Shown: positions 2 to 6,451 of the stretch, piece after piece
How the letters are laid out: the number at the start of each line of letters is the position of its first letter
How positions within the stretch are numbered: position 1 is the first letter of the stretch
Assembly: GCA_016209865.1 (NCBI GenBank)
Contig: JACQVL010000081.1
Span: 1 to 7,179 of the forward strand
DNA length: 7,179 nt
From: Candidatus Latescibacterota bacterium
Lineage (GTDB): Bacteria; JAAXHH01; JACQVL01
Direction: 5' to 3'
Notes under the pieces: generated by a model
What the model was told of the DNA's origin: nothing
The model's input: the letters and a program-made list of their open reading frames with translations, nothing else
Database searches by the model: none
Program-made: the position numbers and the translations under genes

Positions 2-1005
2 ATGCTCAGCCGCTCGTTCTTTCTTCTTTTGTTCATTCTCCCCGCATCCTCTCTCCAAACGCCCGCCTCCGCGGAACGCTACACCGTCATCATCAGCGGC
101 ATCGGGGGCGAAGCCAGCTACTCCGCGCAGCACTGGAAATGGGCGAGCGGGCTGTACCAGGTGTTGAAAGAGCAGTACGGCATCCCGTCAGATCACTTGT
201 TCCTTTTCGTCGAGGAGGTGAAAGACCCGAAGATCCCCGCCCAGAAAGCCTCGCTGGAGGCGGTCAACCGAACCTTCGCCGCCCTCGCCCAGCGGCTCGC
301 CCAGACCGACCTGCTTTTCGTCCTGCTCATCGGCCACGGGAACGCCGACGCGGGCGAAGCGAAGCTGAGCATCCCCGGCCCCGACCTGACCGCCGCCGGC
401 CTGAACGACCGACTCAGCGCCATCAAGGCCGGCCGGATCGTCGTCGTCAACGGCGCGAGCGCGAGCGGCCCGTTCATCGAGGCGTTGAGCGGGCCGGGGC
501 GCATCATCATCACCGCGACGAAGAGCGGAGGGGAAAAGCAGGCCACCATCTTCCCGGAGCATTTTCTGGCGGCGTTGTCCGGATCGAGCAGCGACCTTGA
601 CAAAGACGGGCGTGTCGACCTGCTCGAAGCGTTCAACGCCACGAAGCTGAAGACCGCCGCCTGGTACGACGAGCGCGACCGCATCGCCACCGAGCATCCC
701 CTCCTCGACGACAACGGCGACCACGTCGGCAGTCGGGAGCCGGGCGGCGCGGACCCGGACGGGAGTCTGGCGCGCACGATCACGTTCGGGGAGAAGAAGA
801 GTCTCGCAGACCAGCCCCGGCTTGCTCCCCAGGTTCTCGCCCAACTCAACACCCTCCAGACGAAAGCGCAGGAATTGCAGCGCCAGGTCGACGCGCTCAA
901 GCTGGAGAAGTCCCGCCTCCCTGAAGCCCAGTACAACGCCCGCCTGGAAGTTCTCCTCATCGAACTGGCACGAGTCAATCGGGAGATCACTCGGCTGAAA
1001 CAATC

Positions 1006-1024
<19 letters not shown>
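2..1024 (+). CDS. Secreted caspase/legumain-fold-like protein without catalytic cysteine, with EF-hand and C-terminal coiled coil
   Basis: The 340-aa protein starts with a clear signal peptide (hydrophobic core FFLLLFILP, likely cleavage after ASA at about residue 24), so it should be exported. The ATG is at the window edge; no ribosome binding site can be seen, but the intact signal peptide supports this start. Residues 26-175 have the layout of clan CD peptidases (caspase/legumain fold): a strand ending in the LLIGHG motif (His112), then a strand VVVNGASASG (147-156), where the family carries its nucleophilic Cys, then RIIITATKSG. The nucleophile position is Ala152/Ser153 and the whole protein has no Cys, so it cannot be a cysteine peptidase. 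Residues 198-209 form a canonical EF-hand loop (Asp198, Asp200, Asp202, Gly203, Asp206, Glu209), and DDNGDH at 236-241 may bind a second calcium. Residues 276-335 look like a coiled coil. The last residues (VTSDK) are encoded by a heptamer repeat that also supplies the stop. Fold assignment is inference from motifs; the biochemical role is unknown. Confidence 0.8.
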
Positions 1025-2456
<1,432 letters not shown>

Positions 2457-2865: not shown

Positions 2866-2873
2866 GAGAGGCC

Positions 2874-2889
2874 AGTGGTTAGTGGCCAG
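2874..2889 (+). repeat. Heptamer repeat (AGTGGTT, AGTGGCC) at the left edge of the island
   Basis: Two 7-bp units (2874-2880, 2881-2887) plus a further AG start nine bases after the ftsB stop codon and contain the GTG start of the next gene. They are related to the units at 6344-6364 and, in inverted orientation, to 3636-3650 on the other side of the island. Confidence 0.6.
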
Positions 2890-3135
2890 AAAAAGCAGAC
2901 AGTTGTCGCCAAGCTCACCTCCCGGATGCTGTCGCAAGCCCGCGTTATTGCGAAAGGGAACCGGATTCGGGATGTCCACCGTTTAGTCACGTCTTATGGG
3001 GGGACGCCTGCCCAGTGGGTCAAGAAGAGTAGTCCCCGATTCGAGTTGGCGGACCGGCAGTACGAGTATCATTGGTATGAACATCCGGGGCTTAGGCGGG
3101 TGGAACTCAAACGGAAGCAGGTGAAAGAAGTATGA
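2875..3135 (+). CDS. Small basic protein, toxin-like partner of the following gene
   Basis: I do not recognise a named family with certainty. The 86-aa protein is strongly basic (19 Lys/Arg against 7 Asp/Glu), soluble and without a signal or membrane segment. Conserved-looking blocks are RDVHRLVTSYGG (32-43), WVKKSS (48-53) and a C-terminal HWYEHPG (66-72) followed by RRVELKRK. From memory, a WVKKSS...HWYE pattern resembles the tail ends of polymorphic (Rhs/CDI-type) toxin domains; this is a recollection and not a search result. The GTG at 2875 lies in a heptamer repeat with only a weak AGAGG three bases upstream; ATG at 2926 (residue 18) is an alternative but has no ribosome binding site. 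The frame is closed upstream by the ftsB stop, so it may be a cut-off tail of a longer toxin. It overlaps the next gene by ATGA. GC is about 57% (137/240 over 2881-3120), below recO (80/120 over 4021-4140). Confidence 0.6.
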   Translation: MVSGQKKQTVVAKLTSRMLSQARVIAKGNRIRDVHRLVTSYGGTPAQWVKKSSPRFELADRQYEYHWYEHPGLRRVELKRKQVKEV

Positions 3136-3601
3136 TTGTCAAACTCAAGCGTCCGAGCATGCGGTATCCAGATTTGACTCCGGGCCAGCCGTATGTTGTG
3201 ATTGGGATTGAGGCGGATGAGTTGCGGATTTTGAACGATCACGGACGTCCATACCTGTATTCTCGCCAGCTTTTTGAGGTCGTCGATCCGCGGGCGCCCG
3301 AGGATTGGGTGACGGAAGTCGGAGCGGAAGGGGAGCGCTATGCGTATCCGCTCCCCCTCAACGAAAGTGGCTTCTTCGAGGATTTCTTTGATGGGAAGCC
3401 CGAGGCAGTGGTGACGTTTTGGCGGGTGGTCAATCAACGCTTAGCGGAGGTGATAGCGGCGGTGTAACAAATCAGTCGCCGCCTAACCACCGTTTGCAGG
3501 CCAACTGGAACCGCGCTCGGCGTTTAGACTCGCTTAGCCGGATTCCCTCTTGTTGCCGTTCGCTCGCTCCCGTGAGCGGTTCCAGCGGCTCATCGCGGGC
3601 G
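2879..3601 (+). mobile_element. Putative integron gene cassette carrying the two-gene pair
   Basis: The basic/acidic gene pair followed 13 bases later by an attC-like inverted repeat has the compact layout of an integron cassette. If recombination used the G/TT of the right-hand core (3601/3602), the best left-hand point is the GTT at 2878-2880. That left core reads GTTAGTG, which fits the GTTRRRY consensus poorly. The segment is lower in GC than its neighbours and interrupts a housekeeping stretch (ftsB to recO). No integrase gene is visible in the window. The borders are inference. Confidence 0.35.
3132..3467 (+). CDS. Small acidic protein, immunity- or antitoxin-like partner
   Basis: The 111-aa protein is acidic (18 Asp/Glu against 12 Lys/Arg), the opposite of its upstream partner, and has no signal peptide or membrane helix. 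Recognisable stretches are RPSMRYPDLTPGQPYVVIGI (7-26), LRILNDHGRPYLY (31-43), FEVVDPRAPEDWV (48-60) and GFFEDFFDGKPEAVVTFWR (80-98). The first half suggests a small beta-rich fold with a PGQPYVVIGIE strand, the second a helical end rich in Phe and acidic residues. The ATG at 3132 overlaps the stop of the upstream gene (ATGA), so the two are translated together. Overlap, opposite charge and similar size are the usual marks of a toxin with its immunity protein or antitoxin; here the toxin-like gene comes first, which is commoner for toxin-immunity pairs than for type II antitoxin-first modules. GC is about 57% (137/240 over 3181-3420). Function is inferred from context only. Confidence 0.7.
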   Translation: MIVKLKRPSMRYPDLTPGQPYVVIGIEADELRILNDHGRPYLYSRQLFEVVDPRAPEDWVTEVGAEGERYAYPLPLNESGFFEDFFDGKPEAVVTFWRVVNQRLAEVIAAV

Positions 3602-3607
3602 TTAGGA
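3481..3607 (+). other. attC-like recombination site (integron cassette end)
   Basis: The segment starts 13 bases after a stop codon with GCCTAAC (3481-3487), a perfect match to the attC inverse core RYYYAAC. It ends with GTTAGGA (3601-3607), which matches GTTRRRY except at the last base. CCTAAC and GTTAGG pair over six bases. Further in, CTGGAACCGC (3505-3514) pairs perfectly with GCGGTTCCAG (3576-3585). The arms between are unequal (18 against 16 bases), as expected for the unpaired bases that set strand choice in attC. The 61-base loop is GC-rich and can fold further. Total length of about 127 bases is inside the usual attC range of roughly 55 to 141. The left arm CCTAACnnnnnTTTGCAG also resembles common environmental attC arms, from memory. 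Confidence 0.55.
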
Positions 3608-3635
3608 CGAGTCTATCTCTTCCAGGTTGTGGTTT

Positions 3636-3650
3636 TCACTGACCACTCAC
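3636..3650 (-). repeat. Inverted heptamer repeat at the right edge of the island
   Basis: On the minus strand this reads GTG AGTGGTC AGTGA, the same family as 2874-2889 and 6344-6364. Bases 3636-3647 are identical to 6464-6475. It lies 11 bases before the recO start and so brackets the island together with the plus-orientation copy at 2874. Confidence 0.6.
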
Positions 3651-3660
3651 AGATTCATTC

Positions 3661-4440
3661 ATGCCGCTCTGCACGACTGAAGCCATCATCCTGAACCGGT
3701 ACGTCCTGGGGGATACCAGCCTCCTGGTCGCCCTGTATACGAAAGACTACGGCAAACTCAAAGTCGTGGCGAAAGGGGCACGCAGCGCGAAGAGCAAGAT
3801 CGCCGGAGGGCTGGAACCGTTTACGCACATCCAGGTTTCCTTCCGGCGGAGGGAACAGCGCGAGCTGCAGACGCTCAGCCAGGTCGAGGTCGTCACGTCT
3901 TTCCGGCATCTCGGCGAAGACCTGACGAAGATGGCGTATGCGGGCGCGGTCACGGAGATGATTAACCGATTAGTCATCGGGGAAGAGCCCAGTCCCTCGC
4001 TCTTCGGCCTCCTTCTGGAAGCCCTGATGGAGCTGAACCGTCACCCGGCCGATGCCGGGGAAGTCCTGTTCTGGGGGTTCGAGCTCCGGTTCGCGGTCCT
4101 GTTCGGGTACGCTCCCCAGTTTGTCTCGTGTCCCGTCTGCCACCGGCCCCTCGACGACGGGGAAGCCCGCTTCAGTCCAGCGCTGGGCGGGGTGCTCTGC
4201 CCCCGGTGCTTCGGCCAGGACAGCGGGGCTTTGCCGATCGCGATGGGGACGGTCAAGGTGCTCGAACGGATTCAGGCGATGCCGCTGAGCCTGCTGTCCC
4301 GGCTGAAGCCCTCGCGACTGTCCCAGCGCGAGATCGCCCAGGTCCTCCGGGCGTTCTTAGTCTACCATACCGAGGATGCGCGGGAACTGAAATCGCTCAA
4401 ATTCCTGCGCGCGGTGCAGCATGAAGTCTCCGGAGAGTGA
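3661..4440 (+). CDS. recO: DNA repair protein RecO
   Basis: RecO works with RecR (and RecF) to displace SSB and load RecA on gapped DNA, and anneals complementary strands. The 259-aa product has family length. The N-terminal OB fold (about 1-80) opens with the typical TEAIILNRYVLGDTSLLVALYTKDYGKLKVVAKGAR pattern (6-41), including the basic AKGAR and LEPFTH segments that contact DNA. A helical domain follows, with a complete Cys4 zinc site: Cys157 and Cys160 (CPVC) and Cys180 and Cys183 (CPRC). The start at 3661 fits the family N-terminus, but the bases upstream contain a heptamer repeat and no Shine-Dalgarno sequence, so the original translation signal may have been lost to the upstream island. 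A membrane-anchored protein gene follows after three bases, indicating an operon. Confidence 0.95.
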   Translation: MPLCTTEAIILNRYVLGDTSLLVALYTKDYGKLKVVAKGARSAKSKIAGGLEPFTHIQVSFRRREQRELQTLSQVEVVTSFRHLGEDLTKMAYAGAVTEMINRLVIGEEPSPSLFGLLLEALMELNRHPADAGEVLFWGFELRFAVLFGYAPQFVSCPVCHRPLDDGEARFSPALGGVLCPRCFGQDSGALPIAMGTVKVLERIQAMPLSLLSRLKPSRLSQREIAQVLRAFLVYHTEDARELKSLKFLRAVQHEVSGE

Positions 4441-5304: not shown

Positions 5305-5332
5305 GTCATTCCCGCGGAAGCGGGAATCCATC
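5305..5332 (+). repeat. REP-like palindrome, copy 1
   Basis: ATTCCCGC (5308-5315) and GCGGGAAT (5320-5327) form a perfect 8-bp stem with loop GGAA, flanked by GTC on the left and CCATC on the right. The copy at 6424-6451 is the same over 28 bases except one loop base. Palindromes with the core ATTCCCGC...GCGGGAAT are dispersed in many bacterial genomes. It ends 20 bases before the start of the kinase-like gene; the following CTCTTTTCT is too weak a T-tract to call a terminator. Confidence 0.8.
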
Positions 5333-6339: not shown

Positions 6340-6343
6340 AGAT

Positions 6344-6415
6344 AGTGGTCAGTGGTCAGTGATCGGTAAAATCAGTGACGAGTGACAAGTGACAAGTGAC
6401 GAGTGGCAAGTCAAG
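6344..6415 (+). repeat. Long heptamer repeat array between the kinase-like gene and eda
   Basis: Three units of the AGTGGTC/AGTGATC type (6344-6364), a nine-base break, then six units AGTGACG, AGTGACA, AGTGACA, AGTGACG, AGTGGCA, AGTCAAG (6374-6415). It begins four bases after the kinase-like stop codon. The phase is kept unit to unit with substitutions mainly in the last three bases, as in the short tandemly repeated sequences of cyanobacteria. Confidence 0.85.
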
Positions 6416-6423
6416 CAGAAGCT

Positions 6424-6451
6424 GTCATTCCCGCGAAAGCGGGAATCCATC
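6424..6451 (+). repeat. REP-like palindrome, copy 2
   Basis: ATTCCCGC (6427-6434) and GCGGGAAT (6439-6446) with loop GAAA; otherwise identical to copy 1 at 5305-5332, including the GTC and CCATC flanks and in the same orientation. It lies inside the large inverted repeat formed by 6351-6364 and 6462-6475 and ends 41 bases before the eda start. Confidence 0.8.

Follow-up and report, generated by a model that had tools for sequence, protein, structure and literature searches.

A probable integron cassette with a free-standing gene pair of an uncatalogued polymorphic-toxin/immunity superfamily

The gene pair between ftsB and recO in the window, by which we mean the whole 7,179-nucleotide stretch of Candidatus Latescibacterota DNA analysed here, is a free-standing member of an uncatalogued polymorphic-toxin/immunity superfamily, and its sequence context identifies it as an integron gene cassette, for which recombination is predicted. 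We consider it probable that the first gene encodes the C-terminal domain of a polymorphic toxin and the second its immunity protein, the two occurring without a delivery protein and placed between ftsB and recO as an integron cassette. The features concerned, all on the + strand, are as follows.

2470-2865, +, ftsB (DivIC), left flank of the insertion; profile match confirmed
2875-3135, +, toxin-domain gene (86 aa as annotated, GTG start); open reading frame with profile matches in free-standing pairs and in MuF, Rhs and CdiA C-termini
3132-3467, +, immunity/antitoxin gene (111 aa, ATG start); open reading frame whose homologues follow the toxin domain in MuF and Leptospira Rhs loci as well as in free-standing ones
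2879-3601, +, probable inserted cassette; inferred from G/TTAGTGG upstream and G/TTAGGA downstream (the slash marks the junction), assuming that IntI joined G/TT at 2878/2879 and 3601/3602
3481-3607, +, integron attC site, 127 nt, 13 nt past the immunity stop; inverted arms, genome copies, covariation
3481-3487, 3505-3520, 3570-3585 and 3601-3607, +, inverted attC arms R'' (GCCTAAC), L'', L' and R' (GTTAGGA), respectively
3661-4440, +, recO, right flank of the insertion; profile match confirmed

The gene pair and its position between ftsB and recO

The two reading frames are joined by an ATGA overlap and encode proteins of opposite charge, the 86-aa product basic (pI 10.6, 19 Lys/Arg, 7 Asp/Glu) and the 111-aa product acidic (pI 4.7, 12 Lys/Arg, 18 Asp/Glu), which are exactly the counts given in the original prediction of a toxin/immunity-like island. 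The GC contrast described there holds in that both genes (55.8% and 56.5%) lie below the flanking genes (61.8-68.8%), but recO itself has 63.6% GC and not about 67%. GC3 is 0.65 in both genes of the pair, compared with 0.78-0.87 in the seven other genes of the window. The pair does interrupt a housekeeping run, as had been claimed, since both flanks were confirmed as ftsB (DivIC) and recO and the order eno-ftsB-recO is conserved: in 14 of 14 same-phylum relatives the ftsB match is separated from the recO match by 53-117 nt, and the pair is absent there. Because the pair has no counterpart at this position in any of these relatives, we regard it as a lineage-specific insertion of about 0.7 kb. 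A housekeeping function for either gene, the alternative raised in the original prediction, was rejected, as the pair is missing from this position in all 14 relatives and Pfam and NCBIfam scans gave no housekeeping match for either protein. The genome holds a single copy of the pair, and a profile search of it with the toxin domain matched once only.

The exact ends of the insertion deserve some caution, and the 5' cassette boundary at 2878/2879, read from the sequence, is uncertain. The GTG start of the 86-aa gene falls inside an intergenic repeat and residues 1-8 of its product are disordered in the AlphaFold model, thus the true toxin start may be further downstream. Such dispersed intergenic repeats (AGTGGTCAGTGGTTAGTGG / GTGACGAGTGACAAGTG) lie at window positions 1005-1035, 2868-2886, 3630-3650 and 6340-6410, one of them overlapping the annotated toxin start.

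The attC site and the integron integrase

The original prediction missed an integron attC site and an integrase, which together account for the arrival of the pair between ftsB and recO. The attC site has outer arms GCCTAAC...GTTAGGA and inner arms CTGGAACCGCGCTCGG...CCGTGAGCGGTTCCAG; its R' arm, GTTAGGA, deviates from GTTRRRY. At least four further attC sites were found in the same genome, with copies 69-74% identical, on several contigs and mostly not adjoining intI, each just past the stop codon of an unrelated gene (HAD-like, PIN-domain and two hypotheticals, the HAD and PIN names being assigned by eye). Across five copies, 77% of the cells pair, versus 30-45% with the partner columns slid, and four pairs are compensated by changes on both sides. 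Folding of the bottom-strand attC DNA gave a stability not above that of shuffles (z 0.15), so the attC assignment rests on the arms, the copies and the covariation. The integrase encoded in this genome scores 478 bits against TIGR02249 (cut-off 265) and contains the IntI-specific patch; its gene is divergent from an array of HAD gene, attC and open reading frame, in which a second attC is cut by the contig end.

A strict home-made attC scan missed many sites, and a covariance model trained on the window's genome only was used in its place, which gave matches outside its training set on contigs C57, C115 and C77. In other genomes this model also placed attC sites beside relatives of the pair at three loci (L059, L062 and L063; E 7e-4 to 6e-11), and in 234 kb of control loci it gave no attC match below E 0.5. 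At L063 an attC lies on either side with the pair alone between them, as in a textbook cassette; at L059 one attC follows the pair and another lies a cassette upstream, and at L062 an attC stands just ahead of the toxin gene. At four other loci (L008, L010, L064 and L060), an integrase or its remnant is found no more than about 1.6 kb from the pair. It is the attC behind the window pair, the integrase of its genome and the attC sites beside the pair in other genomes that make the pair an integron cassette. The array beside intI is the usual place of a cassette and not an obligatory one, as lone cassettes occur. The cassette in the window is such a lone insertion, outside any array adjoining intI, whereas relatives of the pair are found in arrays or near intI, and its position would agree with entry at a secondary attG site. 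Loot et al. 2024, as cited in PMC11023631, reported cassette insertion at such sites. Elsewhere in the same genome, a PIN-domain gene (VapC-like, by eye) has an attC belonging to this family directly behind it (L131:1503-2155, contig G000:C93), which is another toxin-type cassette.

Carriers, free-standing relatives and protein structure

The original prediction had described the 86-aa protein as perhaps the orphan tail of a polymorphic toxin and suggested looking for it at the C-termini of secreted toxins, and it was indeed found in Rhs, CdiA-like and phage MuF/minor-capsid proteins, which, together with the homology of the partner, supports a toxin/immunity module. The toxin domain forms the extreme C-terminus of Leptospira RHS-core proteins, where the next gene encodes a distant relative of the 111-aa protein (hhalign of the 111-aa family against the Leptospira immunity protein, probability 93.8%, E 1.7e-7). 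A CdiA-like DUF637 protein also ends in this domain, as do phage minor-capsid proteins that contain a Phage_min_cap2 or Phage_Mu_F domain. The 86-aa frame itself is free-standing, as the N-terminal trafficking/repeat domain of a complete polymorphic toxin is absent. When viral contigs were scanned using the phage immunity protein as the query, 30 loci were returned, 20 of them distinct, and in 26 (18 distinct) a head protein ending in the toxin domain lies directly upstream of the immunity gene. Four loci remain, representing two distinct ones (L041/L042 and L045/L046), in which the head protein has a different tip and the immunity gene, an orphan, is the second small gene after it. A MuF protein with a toxin tip followed by an immunity gene is the arrangement known for MuF polymorphic toxins (Jamet et al., PMC5576092). 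In the phage collection, the window toxin had 0 matches and the MuF version of the toxin had one. The stretches L041:3285-5195 and L045:3392-5261, with a MuF protein of different tip, a small gene and then an orphan immunity copy, resemble an immunity array.

Two Proteobacterial carriers of the toxin domain have a different partner gene. The small genes after the domain in Photobacterium (L014:3716-4545) and Paraburkholderia (L092:2995-3613) are unlike the SH3-like partner and, from their sequences, are possibly a second immunity type. In the Leptospira Rhs proteins (L013:2951-4270, L012:1169-4288), the toxin domain comes directly after the first half of the Ntox10 profile (PF15520), indicating that the Ntox10 Pfam model may fuse a linker with a different toxin; the toxin domain lies outside the matched part, and the window protein has no Ntox10 match.

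Free-standing relatives are also numerous. A genome scan returned eight proteins closely related to the 86-aa protein (57-72% identity), encoded in metagenome-assembled genomes labelled Chloroflexi, Acidobacteria and Deltaproteobacteria, and in all eight a homologue of the 111-aa protein (49-74% identity) follows, overlapping or a few bases away, while the gene neighbourhoods vary. A divergent free-standing group, clade II, has a toxin of the form FEIIGEI...GRWRKLKG...AELHWYEAHGIG and a 75-aa partner ending in ...VIDESGEDYLYP, and accounts for most matches in 36 of 297 genomes from the phylum of G018, a metagenome-assembled genome labelled Acidobacteria. Profile-profile comparison joined clade II to the window family for both the toxin (E 3e-14) and the immunity protein (E 8.8e-14). 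Clade II toxins share a conserved start region of their own and are widespread without delivery forms. That the two genes would be neighbours elsewhere was thus a sound expectation: the partner is present in 39 of 42 distinct free-standing loci (11 of clade I and 31 of clade II). In the remaining loci, the partner of L065 breaks off after six codons and the toxin carries W67R, L083 has no partner found and its toxin carries H66L, and L079 has no partner found, yet its toxin looks intact; in two further loci (L074 and L091) a stop interrupts the toxin reading frame, with the partner gene intact. This asymmetry between damaged toxins and lost partners, seen in small numbers of sequences, would fit what toxicity predicts. 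At L087:1474-2258 a clade II pair in tandem duplication has two successive partner genes with a toxin-like frame fragment between them. Four clade I toxin frames (L005:4980-5040, L007:4953-5031, L009:4995-5046 and L065:1447-1519) lack an ATG, GTG or TTG before the conserved N-terminal region, and in each a Shine-Dalgarno-like AGG precedes ATT or ATA, which are possibly weak non-standard starts that would limit the toxin level.

The conserved core of the 86-aa protein spans approximately residues 22-83. W48 and K79 occur in every one of 61 toxin-domain sequences, K50 in 98%, G42, H66 and W67 in 97% and R32 in 85%, and position 64 is acidic throughout. In the AF2 model (pLDDT 88.7, rising to about 98 in the core), a helix, a strand and a second helix lead into a four-strand antiparallel region. 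A fold search with this model gave no clear relative (best Z 4.3), and no BECR (RelE/colicin/EndoU-like) RNase member was among the matches listed. The putative nuclease 7jta, with anti-Cas9 activity, was the second match (Z 4.2 over 51 residues) and was rejected as a relative because this score is within noise. Metal-independent RNase toxins use a set of Lys, Arg, His and Glu residues on a small sheet, and the conserved residues suggest that the 86-aa protein is probably an RNase. The partner is predicted to form an SH3-like barrel (residues 1-54) with a C-terminal helical extension (AF2 pLDDT 93; VIA-align Z for the SH3 fold up to 6.0 over about 50 residues). Scans of the two window proteins against Pfam, NCBIfam, PHROGs and PADLOC, and of individual alignment members against Pfam and NCBIfam, returned nothing usable, a sequence search of the PDB found nothing credible, and no known toxin-antitoxin family matched the pair in Pfam, NCBIfam or PADLOC. 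The toxin domain has no model in Pfam or NCBIfam, and the immunity family has none in Pfam.

Predicted function, alternative explanations and related systems

On sequence grounds, the pair is most likely a predicted addiction-type toxin and an SH3-fold immunity protein without delivery and moved by IntI. The 86-aa protein would act in the cytoplasm of the cell that makes it, where it would most likely be a metal-independent RNase working through the conserved R/K/E/H/K set, and the acidic SH3-fold protein, translationally coupled through the ATGA overlap, would bind and neutralise it. Loss of the cassette would then leave free toxin, which would make the pair a type II-like addiction module, and its location may be explained by IntI recombination at a secondary G/TT site between ftsB and recO. 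The small co-directional overlapping genes, kept together in nearly all distinct free-standing loci, have the layout of type II toxin-antitoxin systems, and Rhs toxin pairs can act internally as such systems (PMC7043789).

An abortive-infection module kept in the integron, in which phage infection frees the toxin and the infected cell dies, is a rather unlikely reading; about 10% of tested V. cholerae integron cassettes are anti-phage (PMC12409362) and the layout of the pair is toxin-antitoxin-like, but PADLOC gave no match for the pair, and such a role overlaps with addiction and does not exclude it. We consider it unlikely that the two genes are a spare tip and immunity gene kept as a silent reservoir, which would become active only after recombination had joined the tip to a delivery protein of the Rhs, CDI or MuF kind. 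The domain occurs on four kinds of carrier, and PMC5361080 cites Koskiniemi 2014 for the recombination of orphan Rhs tips onto full-length rhs; however, the toxin profile search, with its single match, found no Rhs, CDI or MuF carrier of the domain in this genome, and the start region peculiar to the clade II toxins, widespread as they are without delivery, also argues against a mere reservoir.

The repeated fusion of the domain to the C-termini of MuF, Rhs and CdiA proteins with a small gene after it is a toxin/immunity signature, and this makes it improbable that the two proteins form a non-toxic couple for regulation or nucleic-acid binding whose likeness to toxin tips arose through later recruitment by phage and Rhs proteins, although the partner is SH3/KOW-like, the first protein is basic and free-standing forms are very widespread. 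Toxins altered at H66 or W67 in two of the three partnerless loci (L083 and L065, with L079 intact) point in the same direction. As for the attC-like element, its scattering over contigs, mostly away from intI, is what a dispersed chromosomal repeat unrelated to integrons would also give, in which case the pair came by another route. We judge this to be very improbable, because the R and L arms covary, the copies sit directly past stop codons, one copy and a second at the contig end belong to the array adjoining intI, and attC flanks the pair on both sides in unrelated genomes. The addiction-type pair moved as an integron cassette is the reading we prefer.

Several known systems resemble this addiction-type cassette in part. 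The MuF polymorphic toxins that temperate phages encode (Jamet et al. 2017, PMC5576092) have the C-terminal domain and the downstream immunity family in common with it, in Phage_min_cap2/Phage_Mu_F proteins, whereas the window pair has no MuF part, is chromosomal and lies outside any phage. Orphan Rhs/CDI toxin-immunity pairs (PMC7043789) are likewise delivery-less tips with an immunity gene, and Rhs and CdiA-like relatives of the window pair exist; however, the known orphans adjoin a full rhs or cdiA gene. Researchers have found that integrons carry toxin-antitoxin and anti-phage defence cassettes (PMC11023631, PMC12409362), and the toxin-antitoxin cassettes of chromosomal integrons such as the V. 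cholerae superintegron (PMC11023631) are also two-gene toxin modules followed by attC, moved by IntI and likely addictive. Those cassettes are of the RelE, ParE, HigB or Doc type, whereas the window pair is of a polymorphic-toxin superfamily, with an SH3-like protein in place of a recognised DNA-binding antitoxin.

The pair defines a superfamily whose members are found in the head proteins of phages, in Rhs and CDI systems and as free-standing pairs, and it would offer a concrete mechanism by which effector-immunity pairs are mobilised. Earlier work on T6SS immunity arrays likened effector-immunity insertion to integron capture, but without integrase evidence (PMC5361080), and in a search of open-access full-text literature no paper joined polymorphic toxins with integrons beyond analogy. 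Because the sequence itself contains the attC and the integrase, together with the geometry of a cassette, the integron-capture idea can be tested by standard integron assays. We tentatively propose, as a possibility still somewhat short of likely, that integrons are a gene pool of polymorphic-toxin tips and immunity genes, with IntI as one route by which such pairs pass between delivered and undelivered forms. On this view, one small module would travel on attC cassettes in environmental bacteria and reappear as the toxic tip of phage head, Rhs and CDI proteins. Elsewhere in the window, positions 2-1024 encode a 340-aa secreted-looking protein with a weak Peptidase_C13 match below the cut-off and a coiled coil at its C-terminus, and a palindromic element, GTCATTCCCGCG(G/A)AAGCGGGAATCCAT, occurs in two intergenic copies at 5305-5332 and 6424-6450.
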